Under the pieces are notes generated by a model. That model was given only the letters and a program-made list of their open reading frames with translations. It ran no database searches and was not told where the DNA came from. From Georgenia sp. M64 (GTDB taxonomy: Bacteria; Actinomycetota; Actinomycetes; Actinomycetales; Actinomycetaceae), in the NCBI RefSeq assembly GCF_038049925.1, contig NZ_CP145809.1, positions 4,064,599 to 4,128,598 on the forward strand: DNA of 64,000 nucleotides. Reading direction: 5' to 3'. The translations under genes were made by a program, and so were the position numbers. Shown one piece after another: positions 56,179 through 63,672 of this stretch. Numbering within the stretch: the first letter of the stretch is position 1; the number at the start of each line of letters is the position of its first letter.

Positions 56179-57062
56179 CACGCGAGCTCGTCGTCCTCGG
56201 AACCGCCTCCCAGGTCCCCACCCGGACCCGCAACCACAACGGCTACCTCCTGCGCTGGGACGGGACGGGCTACCTCTTCGACCCCGGCGAGGGGACGCAG
56301 CGGCAGATGACCCACGCGGGTGTGGCGTCGTCGTCGGTCCACCACATCTGCCTCACCCACGTCCACGGCGACCACTGCTACGGGCTGCCCGGGGTCCTCT
56401 CACGCATGGCGCTGGACGGTGTCGAGCACCCCGTCCACCTGCACTACCCGGCGCAGGGCGAGGAGGTCGTGCGGGCGCTGGTGGCGGTCGCCACCCGCCC
56501 GCCGGACCTGCGGCTGCACCCGCACGGCTCGGCGGGTGAGGTCGCCGAGGGGCTGTCCGTGGCACCCCTGCGCCACCGGGTGGCCACCTTCGGCTACCGG
56601 CTGGCCGAGCCTCCCGGGCGGAGCCTCGTGCCCGAGCGGCTGGCCTCGGCGGGGATCGCGGGGCCCGACGTCGGCCGGCTGCTGCGCGAGGGGACCCTCC
56701 GCGGGACCGACCTGGCAGACGTCAGCGTCCCGCGGCCGGGACAGAGCTTCGCCCTGGTGATGGACACCGCACCGTGCGCAGGGGCCGAGGAGCTGGCCGA
56801 CCGGGTGACCGTGCTGCTCTGCGAGTCGACCTTCGCCGACGACGACGCCACGCTCGCGCACACCTACCTCCACCTCACGGCGGGCCAGGCGGGCGTGCTC
56901 GCGGCGACGGCCGGCGTCGCCCGGCTCGTCCTCACCCACTTCTCGTCGCGGTACCCCGACGTCGAGCTCCTCGTCCGGCAGGCCCGCGCCCGTGCCGGCG
57001 CGACCCCCGTGGTGGCCGCCACCGACCTCGACCGGTACGTCCTCCCGCCCCGCCGGGGCTGA
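56175..57062 (+). CDS. rnz: Ribonuclease Z-like MBL-fold nuclease
   Basis: 295 residues. Metallo-beta-lactamase motif THVHGDHCYGLPG (HxHxDH), with an aspartate in VMDTAPC and a final histidine in LTHFSSRY. The length fits tRNA 3'-processing endonuclease (RNase Z). The flexible-arm region is short, so it may be a RNase Z paralogue. The GTG start overlaps the upstream transporter stop, suggesting translational coupling to an unrelated gene. Confidence 0.9.
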   Translation: MTRELVVLGTASQVPTRTRNHNGYLLRWDGTGYLFDPGEGTQRQMTHAGVASSSVHHICLTHVHGDHCYGLPGVLSRMALDGVEHPVHLHYPAQGEEVVRALVAVATRPPDLRLHPHGSAGEVAEGLSVAPLRHRVATFGYRLAEPPGRSLVPERLASAGIAGPDVGRLLREGTLRGTDLADVSVPRPGQSFALVMDTAPCAGAEELADRVTVLLCESTFADDDATLAHTYLHLTAGQAGVLAATAGVARLVLTHFSSRYPDVELLVRQARARAGATPVVAATDLDRYVLPPRRG

Positions 57063-57086
57063 GCGCCGGCGGCTCTGAGCGCCGGC

Positions 57087-58190
57087 TCAGGCCCGGACGG
57101 TGCCCCATCGCTCCTCGATGCGGCCGAACCGCCACACCGCGACGCTGACGAGCCAGACCAGGACGAACGTGGCCACCAGGCCGTACCCGACGTAGGTCAT
57201 GTCCAGGGCGGCGACGGCACCGAGTGGTCCGCCGTCGACGTCGAAGGTCTCCGCGGCGAGCTGGCCCAGCACGACCGTGCCGATGCCCAGCGCCGCGACG
57301 ACCGAGATCACGGTGACCGTGAGGTTGTAGTAGACCTTGCGGACCGGACGCAGGAACGCCCAGCGGTAGGCGCGGGCCATGAAGATCCCGTCGGCGGCGT
57401 CGAAGAGGCTCATCCCGGCGGCGAAGAGGACCGGCAGGACGAGGATCGCGTACCAGGGCAGGGTGAACGCGGCGGTGCCGCCCGCCAGGACGAGCAGGGC
57501 CACCTGGGTGGCGGTGTCGAAGCCGAGGCCCATGAGCAGGCCCACGGGGTAGAGGTGCCAGGCCTTGGTCACCCGGCGCATGACGCGCGAGAGCAGCCGG
57601 GCGAGCAGCCCGCGGTTGTTGAGCAGGCGCTCCAGCTCGGCCTCGTCGAGCGGTGCCCCGCGCATCTCACGGAAGACCCTGACGATCCCCGAGACCGACC
57701 CGAGGTTCATGAGGCCGATGACGATGAGGAACGTCCCCGCGACGACCGTGCCGATGAGCCCGAGCGTCTGCTGGAGCTGGGAGCTCTCGTCCTGAACGGG
57801 GCCGGCCAGGACCCGCACGCCCAGGGCCAGCAGCAGCGAGAGCGCGAACACGACGCTGGAGTGGCCGAGCGAGAACCAGAACCCGGCACTGAGGGCCGGC
57901 CGCCCCTCGCCGACCAGCTTGCGGGTGGTGTTGTCGATCGCGGCGATGTGGTCCGCGTCGACGGCGTGCCGCACGCCCAGGAGGAAGGCGGTCACCCCGA
58001 GGCCGACCCCGAATACCCCGGTGGAGCCGACCGCGATCTGCTGCGGGGCGACGGCGAGGACGAGCACGCCCCAGCCGACGACGTTGAGGAGGACGACCAC
58101 CGCGGCCATGCCCGCGACGGAACGTCGCTCCGCGCCGGACCAGGAGCGCCGGGTGGTCGGCGTGCGGGGGCGGGTCAGCGTGTCGGGCAT
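57087..58190 (-). CDS. NiCoT-family nickel/cobalt permease
   Basis: 367 residues. The signature in helix 2, GVRHAVDADHIAAIDN, binds Ni2+/Co2+; the second conserved blocks are LGHSSVVF and GLGFDTATQ. About eight helices with a long cytoplasmic loop. The ATG follows CGGAAGGATCGCC. Cobalt uptake could support B12 and nickel uptake a hydrogenase or urease; neither pathway is in the window, though NrdJ and PduO use cobalamin. Monocistronic. Confidence 0.93.
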   Translation of the reverse strand: MPDTLTRPRTPTTRRSWSGAERRSVAGMAAVVVLLNVVGWGVLVLAVAPQQIAVGSTGVFGVGLGVTAFLLGVRHAVDADHIAAIDNTTRKLVGEGRPALSAGFWFSLGHSSVVFALSLLLALGVRVLAGPVQDESSQLQQTLGLIGTVVAGTFLIVIGLMNLGSVSGIVRVFREMRGAPLDEAELERLLNNRGLLARLLSRVMRRVTKAWHLYPVGLLMGLGFDTATQVALLVLAGGTAAFTLPWYAILVLPVLFAAGMSLFDAADGIFMARAYRWAFLRPVRKVYYNLTVTVISVVAALGIGTVVLGQLAAETFDVDGGPLGAVAALDMTYVGYGLVATFVLVWLVSVAVWRFGRIEERWGTVRA

Positions 58191-58270
58191 GGCGATCCTT
58201 CCGGCAGCGGGCGGGGGCGGCACGGGTGGGACGAGTGGGACGGAGTGTGGCAGGTGGGTGGGGCGGACCG

Positions 58271-59089
58271 TCAGACGAGCCGGGGGACGGACTGTGCGGC
58301 CATGGCCACGGCCACGAGGACGAGCAGCACCGTGAAGGCCAGGCTGAGCCGCTCCGGACGCACCCGGGTGACCACCCGGCTGCCCAGGAGGCTGCCGGCG
58401 ACCGCGGCCGCGGTGAACAGGCCGAGGACCGCCCAGTCCAGGCTCACCTCCTGCCCCAGGCGCGCGGCCAGGGAGGTGACGCTGTTGACGCTGATGACGA
58501 CGAGGGAGGTGCCCACGGCCACCGGCATCGGCAGGCGCAGCGCCAGCACGAGCGCCGGGACCGCCGCGAAGCCTCCGCCGACCCCGAAGAAACCTGTGAG
58601 GAGGCCGACCCCGGCGGCGGTGAGGACCAGGACGGCGGCCCGGCCGCAGTCGCAGCGCAGCGGCCGCAGGCTGAGGATCGGGCTCGTGCGCGCCTCGACG
58701 ACGGGCCCGCCGGCCCGGGCGGACCGGGCGGCGCTGCGCCTGCGGTGGGTCATCAGACCGGCGACCACCAGGAGCAGCCCGGCGAACGCAGCCAGGAGCA
58801 CCTGGGGGTCGACCCGCACGGACAGCAGCGACGCCGGGTACGCCCCGGCGACGCCGAGGAGCCCGAAGACCAGCCCCTGACCCAGCCGCACCCGGCCTGC
58901 CCGCAGGTGCGGGATCATCCCGATCGCGGTGGTGATCCCGACGATGATGAGCGAGCCGGTGGTGGCCGACCGCACGTCCTGGCCGAGGAGGTACACCAGT
59001 GCCGGGACGGTGAGGATCGAACCGCCGCCGCCGAGCGCCCCGAGGGTGATGCCGACGAGCAGGCCGAGCGGGATGGTCAGGGCGAGCAC
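58271..59089 (-). CDS. TauE/SafE family sulfite exporter-like permease
   Basis: 272 residues, two halves of about four helices, each starting with a Gly-rich turn (ITLGALGGGGSILTVPALVYLLG; LLTGFFGVGGGFAAVPALVLALRL), the TauE hallmark. The GTG at 59089 lies 2 bp after the stop of the dioxygenase-rhodanese gene. Expected role is export of sulfite or related sulfur anions produced by the upstream enzymes. An Arg/Cys loop (RPLRCDCGRAA) connects the halves. Confidence 0.9.
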   Translation of the reverse strand: MLALTIPLGLLVGITLGALGGGGSILTVPALVYLLGQDVRSATTGSLIIVGITTAIGMIPHLRAGRVRLGQGLVFGLLGVAGAYPASLLSVRVDPQVLLAAFAGLLLVVAGLMTHRRRSAARSARAGGPVVEARTSPILSLRPLRCDCGRAAVLVLTAAGVGLLTGFFGVGGGFAAVPALVLALRLPMPVAVGTSLVVISVNSVTSLAARLGQEVSLDWAVLGLFTAAAVAGSLLGSRVVTRVRPERLSLAFTVLLVLVAVAMAAQSVPRLV

Positions 59090-59091
59090 CG

Positions 59092-60462
59092 TCAGACCGC
59101 CGCGGTCTCCTCGAGCACCGGCAGGCCGGCGGCGCGGGCGGACTGGTCGAAGGAGTCGTCGATGACGACGACCCGGTGACCCCTGGCCATGAGGAACGAG
59201 GCGGCCATGGTGGCGCGGTAGCCGGCGGCGCAGTGCACCCACACCTCACCGGCGGGCACCTCGTCGATCCGGCCCAGGAGGTCGTGCAGCGGGATGTGCA
59301 CGGAGCCCTCGATGTGCCCGTCGCGCCACTCCGAGACCCGGCGGACGTCGACCACGGAGACCTCGCGGTGGTGGCGGACCTGCGCGAGGTCGGCGAAGGT
59401 CGCGCGGTCGATCGTGGCCAGCGGCTCGTCGGTCCAGTCCTCCGGTCCGCCGGTCGCGGCCGCGGCGGGCCGGTCGATGCCGATGCGGACCAGCTCGCGC
59501 TGGGCCTCGGCGACCTGCTCGCGGGCCTCGCCGAGCAGGGTGACCGGGGTGCCCCACGGGATGAGCCAGCCGAGGTAGGTGGAGAACTGCCCGTCCAGCC
59601 CGAACGCGAACGAGCCGGGGACGTGCCCGGCCGCGAAGGCGGTCCGGGTGCGCAGGTCCACGAGCCACTCCCCCGCCTCGAGACGACGGCGCAGCTCGGC
59701 CTTGTCGGCCTGCTCGGGGAAGGACAGGTCCGGTGCCGCGGGGCCGCCCGCGTTGGCCGGGCCCATGTGGACGTAGTACGCGGGGTAGACGTCGAGCCCG
59801 GCGACGACCTCGGCGACGTAGTCCGCCTCGTCCTGGGAGAGGACCGGGTTGATGAGCCGCTCCTGGGCGATGGTCGACGCCGTGGTGTCGCCGCCGGCCG
59901 AGGTGGCCGAGCAGAAGCTGCCGAACCCGTGGGTCGGCATGACCTTCGTCGAGCCCGGGAGCTCCTCGGCGAGGCGGCGCGCCGAGCGGAACTGGTGGTG
60001 GGCCAGGTCGTGGGTGTGCTCGGCGCCGAGGAGGTCGGGCCGGCCGGTGGAGCCGAAGAGCAGCGAGCCGCCGGAGAAGACGGCAGGCGAGTCGCCCCCG
60101 AGGGCGTAGGACATGTGGGTGAAGGTGTGGCCGGGCGTGTGCATGGCCCGGACCCTGAGCTCGGCGCTGACCTCGACGACGTCGCCGTCGCGGATGGGCT
60201 CGCGCTCGAAGGAGACGTCGTCGTCGGCGTTGACGTAGTAGCGCGCGCCCACCTGCTGCGCGAGGGCGTACCCGCCGGTGACGTAGTCGTTGTGGATGTG
60301 GGTCTCGAAGACGTGGGTGATCCGGACGCCGGCCTTCTCGGCCGCGTCGAGCATGCGGTCGATGTCGCGCTGGGGGTCGACGACGAAGGCGACCTCGCCG
60401 TCGTGGACCAGGTAGCTGCGGTCGCCGAGGGAGGGGGTCTCGATGGAGATGATCGTGGCCAT
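59092..60462 (-). CDS. Persulfide dioxygenase-like MBL protein with two rhodanese domains
   Basis: 456 residues. N-terminal ETHE1-like MBL domain: THIHNDYVTGG, HTPGHTFTH, FGSTGRPDL and PTHGFGSFC bind a single Fe. Then rhodanese domain 1 (about 255-340), which lacks a catalytic Cys, and domain 2 (about 365-450) with the active loop VHCAAGYRATMA. CstB-type enzymes with this plan oxidise persulfide to sulfite or thiosulfate. The ATG follows AAAGGACCTGACCTG. Middle gene of the operon under the CsoR-like operator. Confidence 0.93.
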   Translation of the reverse strand: MATIISIETPSLGDRSYLVHDGEVAFVVDPQRDIDRMLDAAEKAGVRITHVFETHIHNDYVTGGYALAQQVGARYYVNADDDVSFEREPIRDGDVVEVSAELRVRAMHTPGHTFTHMSYALGGDSPAVFSGGSLLFGSTGRPDLLGAEHTHDLAHHQFRSARRLAEELPGSTKVMPTHGFGSFCSATSAGGDTTASTIAQERLINPVLSQDEADYVAEVVAGLDVYPAYYVHMGPANAGGPAAPDLSFPEQADKAELRRRLEAGEWLVDLRTRTAFAAGHVPGSFAFGLDGQFSTYLGWLIPWGTPVTLLGEAREQVAEAQRELVRIGIDRPAAAATGGPEDWTDEPLATIDRATFADLAQVRHHREVSVVDVRRVSEWRDGHIEGSVHIPLHDLLGRIDEVPAGEVWVHCAAGYRATMAASFLMARGHRVVVIDDSFDQSARAAGLPVLEETAAV

Positions 60463-60507
60463 CAGGTCAGGTCCTTTGCGGTGTCGGGTTGCTGGGCGGT
60501 GTCGCGC

Positions 60508-60831
60508 TCAGGCGCGGTCGCGGTTCGGTCCGGTGACGACGGGGTGGCCCTGGGAGATCCACGCCATGGTGCCGCCGTCGACGGAGTAGGCGTCGTGGCC
60601 GGCCCGGACGAGGTAGTCCATGACGGTCCGGCTGCGGTTGCCGCTGCGGCAGATGACGTACACCGGCTCGCCCTTGGGCAGGTCGGTGTGACGGACGGGC
60701 ACCTGGCCCATGGGCAGCAGCTCCGCGCCGGGGACGTGGCCCTCGACGTACTCGGAGGGCTCGCGCACGTCCAGGACGTAGGCGCCGGTGGCGCGAGCGG
60801 CGGCGAGCTGGTCGATGGTGACGACGGGCAT
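60508..60831 (-). CDS. Single-domain rhodanese
   Basis: 107 residues. Rhodanese fold with the active loop CRSGNRSR and the start VVTIDQLAAARATGAYVLDVREPSEYVEGHVPGA. It transfers sulfane sulfur between low-molecular thiols and proteins. The ATG follows AACAGGAGTGACCATCC. First gene of the sulfur operon, directly downstream of the operator at 60871-60890. Confidence 0.95.
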   Translation of the reverse strand: MPVVTIDQLAAARATGAYVLDVREPSEYVEGHVPGAELLPMGQVPVRHTDLPKGEPVYVICRSGNRSRTVMDYLVRAGHDAYSVDGGTMAWISQGHPVVTGPNRDRA

Positions 60832-61137
60832 GGATGGTCACTCCTGTTCTGTGTGGGGCGGGACCGGACGCTATACCCCAGGGGGTATAGGCGCAAACAG
60901 GGAGGGTCCCGGAGATATTCCACGCCCCTGTTCCTCCGTCACACCAGGGCCGCAGGGCCCGGCTCGGGAGGCGGGCCCTGGACCCGGCCCGCTCCCGGCC
61001 CGCCGCTGTCCGTGACGGGTCCTCGGCGGCGCCGCTTCACGAAGGCTTCACACGGGCGACGCCGAGGCCCTCACGCGCGGGCGGTGGACTTGTTCTCAAG
61101 ACCGAGGGGGCATCGAGCCCCGGGAGAGGTGAGCACG
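60832..61137. promoter_or_regulatory. Intergenic region with a CsoR/CstR-type operator
   Basis: CTATACCCC-AG-GGGGTATAG (60871-60890) is a perfect palindrome with the G-tract pattern of CsoR-family operators. Read on the minus strand it lies between TTTGCG (-35-like) and TATAGC (-10-like), 16 bp apart, so binding would block the sulfur operon promoter. A persulfide sensor (CstR) is the likely ligand-bound regulator given the genes; it is not in this window. 60900-61100 has no other recognised feature. Confidence 0.8.
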
Positions 61138-61818
61138 ATGAGGATCATGAGGACGGGTGCTGTGGCACTGGCCGTCGTCGCCGTCGCCGTGGGGACGGCG
61201 GGCGTCGCGACGGCACGACCGGCGGGCCCCGGTGACGGCTGGTCCGGCGGCCCCAACCGCAGCGGCGACCCGGTCGCGGCGGTGACGGTGGACCTCACCG
61301 ACGAGGAGGTGGCCGGCCTGGTCTTCACCCGCGAGGAGGAGGCGATGGCACGCGACCTCTACCAGGCGTTCGCCGAGCTGTACCCGGAGACGGAGATCTT
61401 CACCCGCATCGCGACGAGCGAGCAGCGTCACTTCGACGCGATCGGCAACGTCCTCGAGCGGTACGGGATCGACGACCCCAGCACGGGTGAGCCGGGCGTG
61501 TACGTCGACGACGCGATCCAGGACCTCTACGACGGCTGGCTGGCCGACGGCTCGGAGTCGGTGCAGGCCGCGTACGAGGTCGGCGTCGAGCTCGAGAGGG
61601 TCGACGTCGAGGACCTCCAGGGCCTCATCGACGCCACCGACAACGCGATGCTGGACCGGGTGTACTCGAACCTGCTGGCGGGTTCGGAGAACCACCTCGC
61701 CGCGTTCGAGGCGGCGGCTGCCGGCGAGACACCCGCCCTGTGCACGCAGGACGGCACGGGCATGCAGGACCGGCAGATGATGGGCCGGGGCGGTCGCGGC
61801 CCGGGTCACCGGAGCTGA
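61138..61818 (+). CDS. Secreted DUF2202 (ferritin-like fold) protein
   Basis: 226 residues: signal peptide (RTGAVALAVVAVAVGTAGVATA), then the DUF2202 helical domain starting VAGLVFTREEEAMARDLYQAFAELY and TSEQRHFDAIGNVLERYG, with paired Glu/His residues like the iron sites of ferritin-like proteins, and a Gly/Arg-rich tail. The ATG follows GGGAGAGGTGAGCACG. Possibly an extracytoplasmic metal-binding or oxidoreductase protein; function undefined. Confidence 0.85.
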   Translation: MRIMRTGAVALAVVAVAVGTAGVATARPAGPGDGWSGGPNRSGDPVAAVTVDLTDEEVAGLVFTREEEAMARDLYQAFAELYPETEIFTRIATSEQRHFDAIGNVLERYGIDDPSTGEPGVYVDDAIQDLYDGWLADGSESVQAAYEVGVELERVDVEDLQGLIDATDNAMLDRVYSNLLAGSENHLAAFEAAAAGETPALCTQDGTGMQDRQMMGRGGRGPGHRS

Positions 61819-62264
61819 TGAACCGGTAGTCACACGCCAGGCACGGCACGGCAGGTATCCACACCGCCGGGCACGGCACACCAGGCTCGGCACGCCGGGC
61901 ACGGCACGCCGGGCACGGCACGGCACGGGACGGCACGGGACGGCACGGGACGGGCGGCACCCTCAGGGGTGCCGCCCGTTCGCGCGCACAGAACCTCTCG
62001 CGAGCCGGCATCCGCCGCTCCAACGGGGAGGAAGTGACGGATCGGGTCACATCCGGCGGCTCATCCCCGGCGACGTCTCCCCGACGAGCGCCACAGACAT
62101 GGCGCCGGCTCTGCCTGGCCTCACTGCCCTGCCCGGCCGTGGCTGAGCTTGCCTGGCCTTGGCCCTGCCTGGCCGTGGCGAGAACCCGGCGCGGCGCGAC
62201 CCGGTGCAGCCGGGCGCAGCGCGGCCGGGCCACCGCGCCTCGCGCCTCGCGGCCGGACGGCGGG
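61819..62264 (+). terminator. 446-bp gap with GGCACGG repeats and a terminator
   Basis: GGCACGG-type simple repeats fill 61840-61950, including three 10-bp GGCACGGGAC units. They end in a hairpin CGGGCGGCACC / GGTGCCGCCCG (61951-61961, 61968-61978) followed by TT, which should terminate the DUF2202 transcript. 61985-62264 has TGCCTGGCC-type degenerate repeats and no gene. Confidence 0.65.
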
Positions 62265-62714
62265 TCAGATCCCGGCCTTCTCCTTCACCTGGCGCTTGAT
62301 GCGCCCGAGCATCCCCGCCATGCCCCGCAGGCGCAGCGGGCTGACGACCTCGGCGAGGCCGAGCCGGCCGGTGAAGTCGGCGGGCACGTCGAGGATCTCC
62401 TGCGCCGTCCGGCCGTCGAGGCCCTCGTGGAGGATGCCCGCGAAGCCGCGGGTGGTGGGCGCCTCGCGCGGGGCGGAGAAGTACAGCCGGACCACGGCGT
62501 CCCCGCCCGCGCCCTCGACCTCGGTGAGCAGGAAGATCGGCGACTGGCACTCCGGGACCGGCTCGAGGAGCTCGGGGTGCTCCGCGTAGCGCTCCGGCAG
62601 GTCGGGCAGCCCCTGGCTGAACTCCAGCAGCAGCTGGAGCCGCTCGGGGACGGGCATCGCGGTGAAGTCCTCCGCGATCCCGGCCAGGCCCTCGGGCAGG
62701 TCGGTGGTCGTCAC
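62265..62714 (-). CDS. sufE: SufE-family Fe-S assembly sulfur acceptor
   Basis: 149 residues with the SufE active-site motif [13 protein letters not shown] (Cys56), which takes persulfide sulfur from SufS and activates it. [13 protein letters not shown] and [22 protein letters not shown] are the other conserved blocks. The ATG overlaps the stop of the sulfurtransferase gene by 4 bp, so the two form an operon; this sseA-sufE pairing is common in Actinobacteria. Confidence 0.95.
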
Positions 62715-63607
62715 CGCGTCACCTCACCCGGCTCCTCGCCGCGGGCGATGGGCACCCGCACGGCGTTGCCCCACTCGGTCCACGAGCCGTCGTAGTTGCG
62801 CACGTCCGGGAAGCCGAGGAGCTGCTGCAGGACGAACCACGTGTGGCTCGACCGCTCCCCGATGCGGCAGTAGGTGATGACCGGCTCGGCTGCGTCGAGG
62901 CCCTTCTCGTCGACGTAGATCGAGGCGAGCTCGTCGCGCGAGCGGAACGTCCCGTCCTCGTTCGCGGCCCGCGCCCACGGCACGGACTGCGCGCCGGGGA
63001 TGTGGCCGCCGCGCAGCGCCCCCTCCTCGGGGTAGTCCGGCATGTGGGTGCGCTCGCCGGTGTACTCCGGCAGCGAGCGCACGTCCACGAGCTGACCGCC
63101 GAGGAAGGCCACGACGTCGTCCTTGAACGCCCGCACGGGTGCGTCCTCGCGCTCGACGACCGGGTAGTCCGCCGCTGCCGGCGACGGCCTCGCGGTGGTC
63201 ATCTCCCGGCCCTCCGCCTCCCACTTGGCGCGGCCGCCGTCGAGCAGGCGCACGTCCGGGTGGCCGAACAGCGTGAAGACCCACAGCGCGTACGCGGCCC
63301 ACCAGTTGTTCTTGTCGCCGTAGATGACGACCGTGGTGTCGCGACCGATCCCCTTGGCGGACATGAGCCGGGCGAACCCGGCGCCGTCGACGTAGTCCCG
63401 GGTGACGGGGTCGTTGAGGTCGAGGTGCCAGTCGACCTTGACCGCACCGGGGATGTGCCCGGTCTCGTAGAGCAGGACGTCCTCGTCGCTCTCGACGACG
63501 ACGAGGCCCGGCTCGCCGAGGTGCTCGGCGAGCCACGTGGTGCTCACGAGCCGCTCCGGGTGGGCGTAGTCGGCGAACTTCGGGTCGTCGTCACGGGGCA
63601 GGGTCAT
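62711..63607 (-). CDS. sseA: Two-domain sulfurtransferase (thiosulfate/3-mercaptopyruvate type)
   Basis: 298 residues, two rhodanese domains. The N-terminal one is inactive ([35 protein letters not shown]), the C-terminal one carries the catalytic Cys in [18 protein letters not shown]. The loop CRIGERSS resembles thiosulfate sulfurtransferases of Actinobacteria (SseA/CysA type). The ATG at 63607 has GAGAGG upstream; an earlier in-frame start is unlikely. Supplies sulfane sulfur for the SufE encoded directly downstream. Confidence 0.93.
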
Positions 63608-63672
63608 GGCGTCTGGCCTCTCGTCGGGGGGTGCGGCTGCTCCCATCCTCTCACCGAGGCACACTGGTCGGT

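Follow-up and report, generated by a model that had tools for sequence, protein, structure and literature searches.

A predicted CstR-type operator at a rhodanese, persulfide-dioxygenase-like, and TauE operon in Georgenia sp. M64, with a candidate remote repressor

Results

The window analyzed here is a stretch of 64,000 nucleotides from Georgenia sp. M64 (positions 4,064,599 to 4,128,598 of a genome assembled as one contig of 4,183,773 bases). It contains a set of sulfur genes on the minus strand and, upstream of them, a palindrome whose half-sites are separated by a six-base spacer (n6).

57087 to 58190, minus strand: NicT nickel/cobalt transporter, possible fourth gene (NCBIfam NicT, above cutoff)
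58271 to 59089, minus strand: TauE/SafE-family putative sulfite exporter (Pfam PF01925, E 1e-42)
59092 to 60462, minus strand: type III persulfide-dioxygenase-like protein (PDO), 456 amino acids, with an MBL domain and two rhodanese stretches (Pfam; PDB relatives 3tp9, 3r2u, and 4ysb)
60508 to 60831, minus strand: single-domain rhodanese, 107 amino acids, first gene of the operon (Pfam PF00581, E 2.6e-17)
60871 to 60890, no strand: predicted n6 operator, CTATACCCC-AG-GGGGTATAG, containing ATACC-n6-GGTAT and kept upstream of homologous PDO operons

The Pfam matches bear out the gene set of the original prediction (rhodanese, MBL-rhodanese, and TauE). The GTG start of TauE lies 2 bp past the PDO stop codon, and the NicT gene lies 80 bp downstream of TauE. 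In the best 80 of 345 PDO loci, homologues of the rhodanese were found in 47, of TauE in 56, and of NicT in 5, all five of these among the closest relatives. The DUF2202 gene divergent from the operon (61138 to 61818) was rejected as a regulon partner, as only 2 of the 80 related loci carry a homologue, and the adjoining SufE and two-domain rhodanese genes (62265 to 63610) have no n6 site.

The PDO had been described as a persulfide dioxygenase-rhodanese. The fusion of an MBL domain to rhodanese, as in 3tp9 and 3r2u, fits a type III enzyme and was recovered by Pfam, but the canonical Asp iron ligand is missing: within the 2-His-1-Asp triad, H55 and H112 are kept and Asp is replaced by Gly132. 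At this position the PDB relatives 3tp9, 3r2u, and 4ysb and BpPRF all show GD, where the window PDO reads SGGSLL; 3r2u, which we take to be CstB, has an Asp ligand and the window enzyme a Gly. The Gly is present in 81 of 81 sequences (window plus best 80 of 345 loci) and in 30 of 30 loci of a class-wide sample extending to 36% identity, a count that includes the window's own locus and covers the stronger matches of that sample, for which loci were fetched. A comparison of active-site columns showed that H55, H57, D59, H112, and H178 are kept. Tyr60 replaces the third His of THxHxDH (Tyr in 80 and Phe in 1 of 81), in keeping with the rule that type III PDOs have Phe or Tyr here (PMC6060420; published work is cited throughout from partial texts).

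Loss of the Asp raises the alternative that the MBL-rhodanese proteins of this clade are not true iron persulfide dioxygenases (being, e.g., persulfide sulfurtransferases or hydrolases), in which case the proposed oxidation and sulfite export would be wrong and the regulation right. Its occurrence in all close and wider homologues favors this reading, as do findings on the A. caldus PDO, whose iron ligands are H57, H113, and D130: the D130A, D130E, and D130H variants keep 0.5 to 2% of activity, and iron is low in D130A and D130H (PMC6060420). We nevertheless consider it unlikely. The other first- and second-sphere positions checked are all kept, TauE lies near PDO in the 56 of 80 loci noted above, and a Streptomyces-type circuit encodes the Gly form. 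This circuit, in genome L288, has the order rhodanese, CsoR, TauE, PDO, with Cys37 and Cys66 in the CsoR and with n6 sites, in agreement with the report on S. coelicolor (PMC7533328), where ScPDO consumed O2 with GSSH (Vmax, 1.19 umol O2/min/mg). Because L288 shares the S. coelicolor gene order and residues and the S. coelicolor PDO is active, the Gly form probably works, if perhaps slowly; by the same analogy, we infer that ScPDO is itself a Gly form. Moreover, Asp-type, CstB-like enzymes in two family genomes (L215 and L222) lie beside n6 sites and the same small protein that accompanies n6 sites here (see below), which suggests that Gly-type and Asp-type enzymes do the same job. A search of the literature, within the texts covered, yielded no description that we recognized as a Gly-form PDO.

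Positions 60871 to 60890 read CTATACCCCAGGGGGTATAG, a perfect 20-bp inverted repeat with 9-bp arms and a 2-bp center. The sequence has a single match within the window and none in 100 dinucleotide shuffles, and it lies upstream of the rhodanese gene, 39 bp from its start (ATG 60831 to 60829, minus strand). Conservation was assessed in the best 80 loci, out of 345 confirmed relatives of the window MBL protein (988,232 bases; actinobacterial by record title, except for one record labeled Acidobacteria). The 18-mer TATACCCCNNGGGGTATA, required to match at no fewer than 13 of 16 positions, gave 119 matches in these loci, 109 of them in the interval that runs from 2,500 bp upstream of the PDO start to 20 bp downstream of it; with the pattern reversed there were none. 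When the 700 bp upstream of PDO were searched for ATACC-C..G-GGTAT, the n6 form was found in 65 of 77 testable loci (the 80 minus three with under 300 bp upstream) and was absent from the other 12, while n7 was found in 0 and n5 in 3. In 33 aligned upstream sequences, the palindrome was the sole conserved element. The arms confirm that the palindrome is perfect, and its assignment to the CsoR/CstR type is supported. Its proposed placement between -35 and -10 elements found no support: a sigma-70-type consensus scan recognized no promoter around it, and nothing else was conserved across the 33 upstream sequences. Nor does each of the three genes have such a site; a single palindrome precedes the whole operon. 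An Rfam scan of 56900 to 62300 returned no match.

The regulator gene had been predicted to lie away from the operon, and this proved correct. The genome has five PF02583 (CsoR-family) genes, all over the cutoff, and none is within the window. At the copper-ligand positions, three read C-H-C, one reads C-Y-A, and one reads C-S-C; a copper paralog lies at 3,995,587. The C-S-C gene (439,711 to 439,974; PF02583 E 6.7e-25) is the only C-x-C gene of the five without His; its fingerprint, C35-S60-C64, has the two sensing Cys residues and no copper-ligand His. Of the 41 CsoR-family genes found inside the 80 PDO loci, 40 read C-G-C or C-N-C, and the remaining one reads C-H-C. A 101-row tree split C-H-C from non-His groups at 100/100, with the C-Y-A gene inside the C-H-C group, and placed the C-S-C protein at 99/97 in a group of 10 rows made up of repressors from Cellulomonas, Georgenia, and Knoellia PDO-locus records and from family genomes. 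The gene comes after thioredoxin and DUF302 genes, and rhodanese and CoA-disulfide-reductase-rhodanese genes run divergently from it. Further downstream are SQR-like, DsrC, and DsrE genes, and n6 sites occur in this sulfur neighborhood. Since it is C-S-C rather than C-H-C, clusters with PDO-linked repressors, and has sulfur neighbors with similar sites, we assign the candidate to the CstR type, and it is most likely the missing regulator. On a circular chromosome, ~0.5 Mb would separate it from the operon. PDO and a CstR-like gene are also far apart in a genome of the same genus (G052), and in another genome (G107) one PDO lies ~3 kb from a CstR-like gene.

Comparison of upstream regions indicated that spacing separates CstR-type regulons (n6) from copper CsoR regulons (n7). 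The 250 bp upstream of each gene were searched: for 33 C-H-C genes, n7 was present at 19, n6 at 0, and neither at 14, whereas for 72 non-His genes n6 (ATACC-n6-GGTAT) was present at 24, n7 at 0, and neither at 48. Part of the non-His set was drawn from loci selected by way of the small protein, 29 additional C-H-C genes were taken as the best-scoring loci, the host's C-Y-A gene was left out, and the sequences are related, so that p values overstate their independence. The published sites agree with the rule: ScCsoR of S. coelicolor binds ATACCn6GGTAT (PMC7533328), and the copper CsoR sites of S. lividans are TAC-X9-GTA, i.e., n7 (PMC3902906). We found no statement of such a rule in the literature covered, which is cited in part, and do not claim it as unpublished.

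These counts bear on the possibility that a C-H-C copper CsoR of the host binds the window site, which would make the operon copper regulated or doubly controlled. Sites bound by CsoR-family proteins share the form of a G-tract palindrome (PMC3902906), and the copper sites differ from the window site by a single spacer base. The n7 form has 8 sites in the genome, among them one upstream of the host's own csoR (ATACC-n7-GGTAC) and one upstream of a gene whose P-type ATPase-like product is rich in His at its N terminus. The window site, however, is n6 and not the n7 site (TAC-X9-GTA) that goes with a C-H-C regulator under copper control, and neither the C-H-C genes counted above nor the S. lividans sites provide an instance of n6. 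Across 121 family genomes, the operator also tracks CstR-like genes far better than copper-like genes: exact ATACCCCNNGGGGTAT occurs in 50, of which 49 carry a CstR-like gene (odds ratio, 183) and 27 a copper-like PF02583 gene, these classes being set by PF02583 bit score and not by residue (copper-like, >95; CstR-like, <=90, which also takes in the host's C-Y-A gene at 71 bits and a partial 41-bit match). Finally, the CsoR of S. aureus does not respond to sulfide (PMC5480029). We regard copper control of the operon as improbable and favor control by the CstR-type repressor.

A search of the genome for ATACCCNNNNGGGTAT with at most one mismatch gave 14 sites, against 0 for the reversed pattern; the n6 sites below are among them, and of the other six, those whose neighbors were inspected lie by genes with no obvious tie to sulfur.

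438517: n6 site upstream of a rhodanese gene
438732: n6 site upstream of a thioredoxin gene
439663: n6 site upstream of the candidate repressor gene itself
443181: n6 site upstream of an SQR-like gene
1470946: n6 site upstream of a rhodanese lipoprotein gene
1837909 and 1837958: two n6 sites upstream of a small-protein gene
4125471: n6 site upstream of the window operon

Sites of the n6 form were also seen near an MgtE-like gene and a SHOCT-type protein, neither with a clear sulfur link. Judged by site position, the putative targets include rhodanese, PDO, TauE, and SQR genes, and G-tract palindromes are present at these putative CstR-type target promoters. The same repressor probably governs a dispersed regulon over several loci. 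That the window palindrome arose by chance or serves an unrelated factor (a transcription terminator or another dimeric regulator) is a reading to which the failed promoter scan lends some weight, but it is highly improbable given 0 occurrences in 100 shuffles, reversed-pattern controls of 0 against both the 119 matches in the 80 loci and the 14 in the genome, and the absence of a terminator-like T-run at the site. Taken together, the sequence comparisons support the palindrome as a genuine, beyond-chance switch for reactive-sulfur detoxification genes.

The gene behind the paired sites is a 38-codon open reading frame at 1,838,013, and both of its n6 sites are perfect. The Cys-rich product has homologues at 89 places in the family, spread over 73 of 121 genomes, and at the level of the phylum in 28 of 246 genomes. 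A CstR-like gene lies no more than 2.5 kb away at 42 of the 89 places, and a copper-like gene no more than 5 kb away at none; a CstR-like gene is found in 59 of the 73 genomes with the small protein versus 5 of the 48 without it. This linkage extends to genomes that lack the dioxygenase: a PDO-like gene (E <= 1e-40) is present in only 12 of 121 family genomes, and 48 of the 52 CstR-like genomes without one still encode the small protein. In two genomes (L200 and L225), genes for a CoA-disulfide-reductase-rhodanese, a CstR-type regulator, and the small protein lie in that order on one strand. The small protein is also encoded in 38 of the best 80 of 345 PDO loci, where 14 of 39 copies lie less than 200 bp downstream of PDO on the same strand.

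Several features are consistent among the copies. Over 243 pairs, pN/pS was 0.50. In an alignment of 37 copies (39 were found, and the partial copies from L026 and L030 were left out), GGAG precedes the start in 35 of 37, as judged by eye, and M1, C7, C10, G17, C18, G19, H21, and C35 are invariant. C7, C10, C18, and H21 likely form a Cys3His zinc site, with C2 and C35 in addition. The AlphaFold2 model is a hairpin plus a helix (pLDDT, 83; pTM, 0.41). The protein had no match in Pfam or NCBIfam; a Foldseek search of the model against PDB gave 7 uninformative matches (best E, 3.9), and 2 PDB sequence matches, both with E above 0.6, were rejected. A literature search that included motif words yielded no description that we recognized in the partial texts covered. 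Plasmid matches mostly lacked an annotated gene, but the feature listing has gaps (2 features for the whole of one record), so we do not take this as proof that the small protein is unannotated.

Discussion

The window operon appears to be an ordinary cst-type module and a further example of a circuit already described, set apart by its dispersed regulon and remote regulator. It matches the ScCsoR-ScPDO-TauE-rhodanese circuit of S. coelicolor (SCO0618 to SCO0621; PMC7533328), which has the same four functions. The S. coelicolor ATACCn6GGTAT fits window positions 60873 to 60888 exactly, and the two regulator Cys residues are 29 residues apart in both (Cys37 and Cys66 in S. coelicolor and Cys35 and Cys64 here). 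In S. coelicolor the regulator gene is adjacent (PMC7533328), whereas here it lies in another sulfur cluster, with sites at several loci, and the 38-residue protein present here was not found described for the S. coelicolor circuit in the available part of that report. CstR of S. aureus is likewise a persulfide-sensing CsoR-family repressor of CstA/CstB/SQR-type genes (PMC5480029). The copper CsoR/RicR proteins of actinobacteria, such as S. lividans CsoR, share the fold family and a similar palindrome but have C-H-C and n7 (TAC-X9-GTA) (PMC3902906) where we find C-S-C and n6. T. thermophilus TTHA1953 is another sulfur regulator of the CsoR family whose targets are encoded at a distance from it; unlike the candidate described here, it controls sulfur-oxidation (sox) genes through a consensus, TACNNTACNNNNGTANNGTA, without a G-tract (PMC10318464).

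Thus, the cst-type logic of the original prediction is supported as to site type and gene set, and for the mechanism we rely on ScCsoR (PMC7533328). We think it very likely that a persulfide-responsive, remote CstR-type repressor controls the window operon. From the sequence and this precedent, we infer the binding, inducer, enzyme activity, and export as follows. The repressor encoded at 439,711 to 439,974 would bind the n6 palindrome and repress the rhodanese-PDO-TauE operon. Persulfide formed on its first Cys (Cys35), with help from Cys64, would release it from DNA; after derepression, persulfide sulfur would be transferred, oxidized to sulfite, and exported. The same repressor would also control the rhodanese, CoA-disulfide-reductase-rhodanese, and thioredoxin genes and its own gene, together with SQR-DsrC-DsrE, the rhodanese lipoprotein, and the Cys-rich small protein of ~38 residues.

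A broader proposal, to which we give a little less than an even chance, is that actinobacteria have unrecognized persulfide-response parts of two kinds. One would be the small protein, which would share the control of the CstR-type repressor gene, be linked to it across genomes even in the absence of a dioxygenase, and act as a dedicated persulfide carrier, a buffer, or a zinc-thiolate partner of the repressor. The other would be the PDO clade, working with a two-His (carboxylate-free) or three-His iron site.

The one-base difference between n6 and n7 offers a usable discriminator of persulfide and copper regulons in actinobacteria. The sulfur regulon here appears to be dispersed, where S. aureus CstR, by the available account, probably governs a single operon directly (PMC5480029). 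What could surprise specialists here is the small protein, along with the Gly-type enzyme. Gly-form enzymes are likely to be named dioxygenases despite failing a defining active-site feature, and the Gly-for-Asp clade calls into question what catalysis requires of persulfide dioxygenases; the small protein would give persulfide homeostasis a new component that is specific and open to testing.

Active site of the dioxygenase-like enzyme and genes flanking the operon

The persulfide dioxygenase-like protein of the window operon (59092-60462) has Gly at residue 132, the position of the iron-ligand Asp in persulfide dioxygenases, and Gly occupies this position in 81 of 81 close homologues. The operon is flanked by the following features of the window.

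57087-58190, nickel transporter (NicT), on the far side of TauE in the downstream direction
61138-61818, DUF2202 protein, its gene and the operon pointing away from each other
62265-63610, SufE together with a rhodanese that contains two rhodanese stretches, just past the upstream side of the operon

Among the best 80 of 345 related loci, NicT was present in 5, all of them close relatives, and the DUF2202 protein was found in 2. No n6 site (ATACC-n6-GGTAT, the predicted CstR-type operator) was present in the SufE-rhodanese stretch. Short direct repeats of the cggcacggcac type can be read at about 61840-61960, between the DUF2202 gene and SufE.

CsoR-family paralog and other n6 sites in the genome

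Elsewhere in the Georgenia sp. M64 genome (contig G000:C1; excised loci L011 and L015), the following features were located.

L011:12713-13000, - strand, CsoR-family protein with C-Y-A replacing C-H-C
L015:5430-5900, - strand, membrane protein, divergent from the Cys-rich ORF
G000:C1:1838013-1838126 (L015:6014-6127), + strand, Cys-rich ORF of 38 codons, downstream of two perfect n6 sites

The C-Y-A protein has lost the sensing residues; the neighbourhood of its gene includes copper ATPase genes as well as ORFs of the recombinase/integrase type. Two further n6 sites adjoin a putative MgtE-like gene (G000:C1:1437798) and a putative small membrane protein of the SHOCT type (G000:C1:1661230), neither of which is known to be linked to sulfur.

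The L015 membrane protein, which has no match in Pfam, and the Cys-rich protein are encoded by divergent genes that have the two n6 sites in common. In loci from two other family genomes (L215 and L222), two copies of the small protein, together with n6 sites, adjoin a CstB-like enzyme of the Asp type. Across the family, homologues of the small Cys-rich protein occur in 73 of the 121 genomes and are associated with CstR-type genes.
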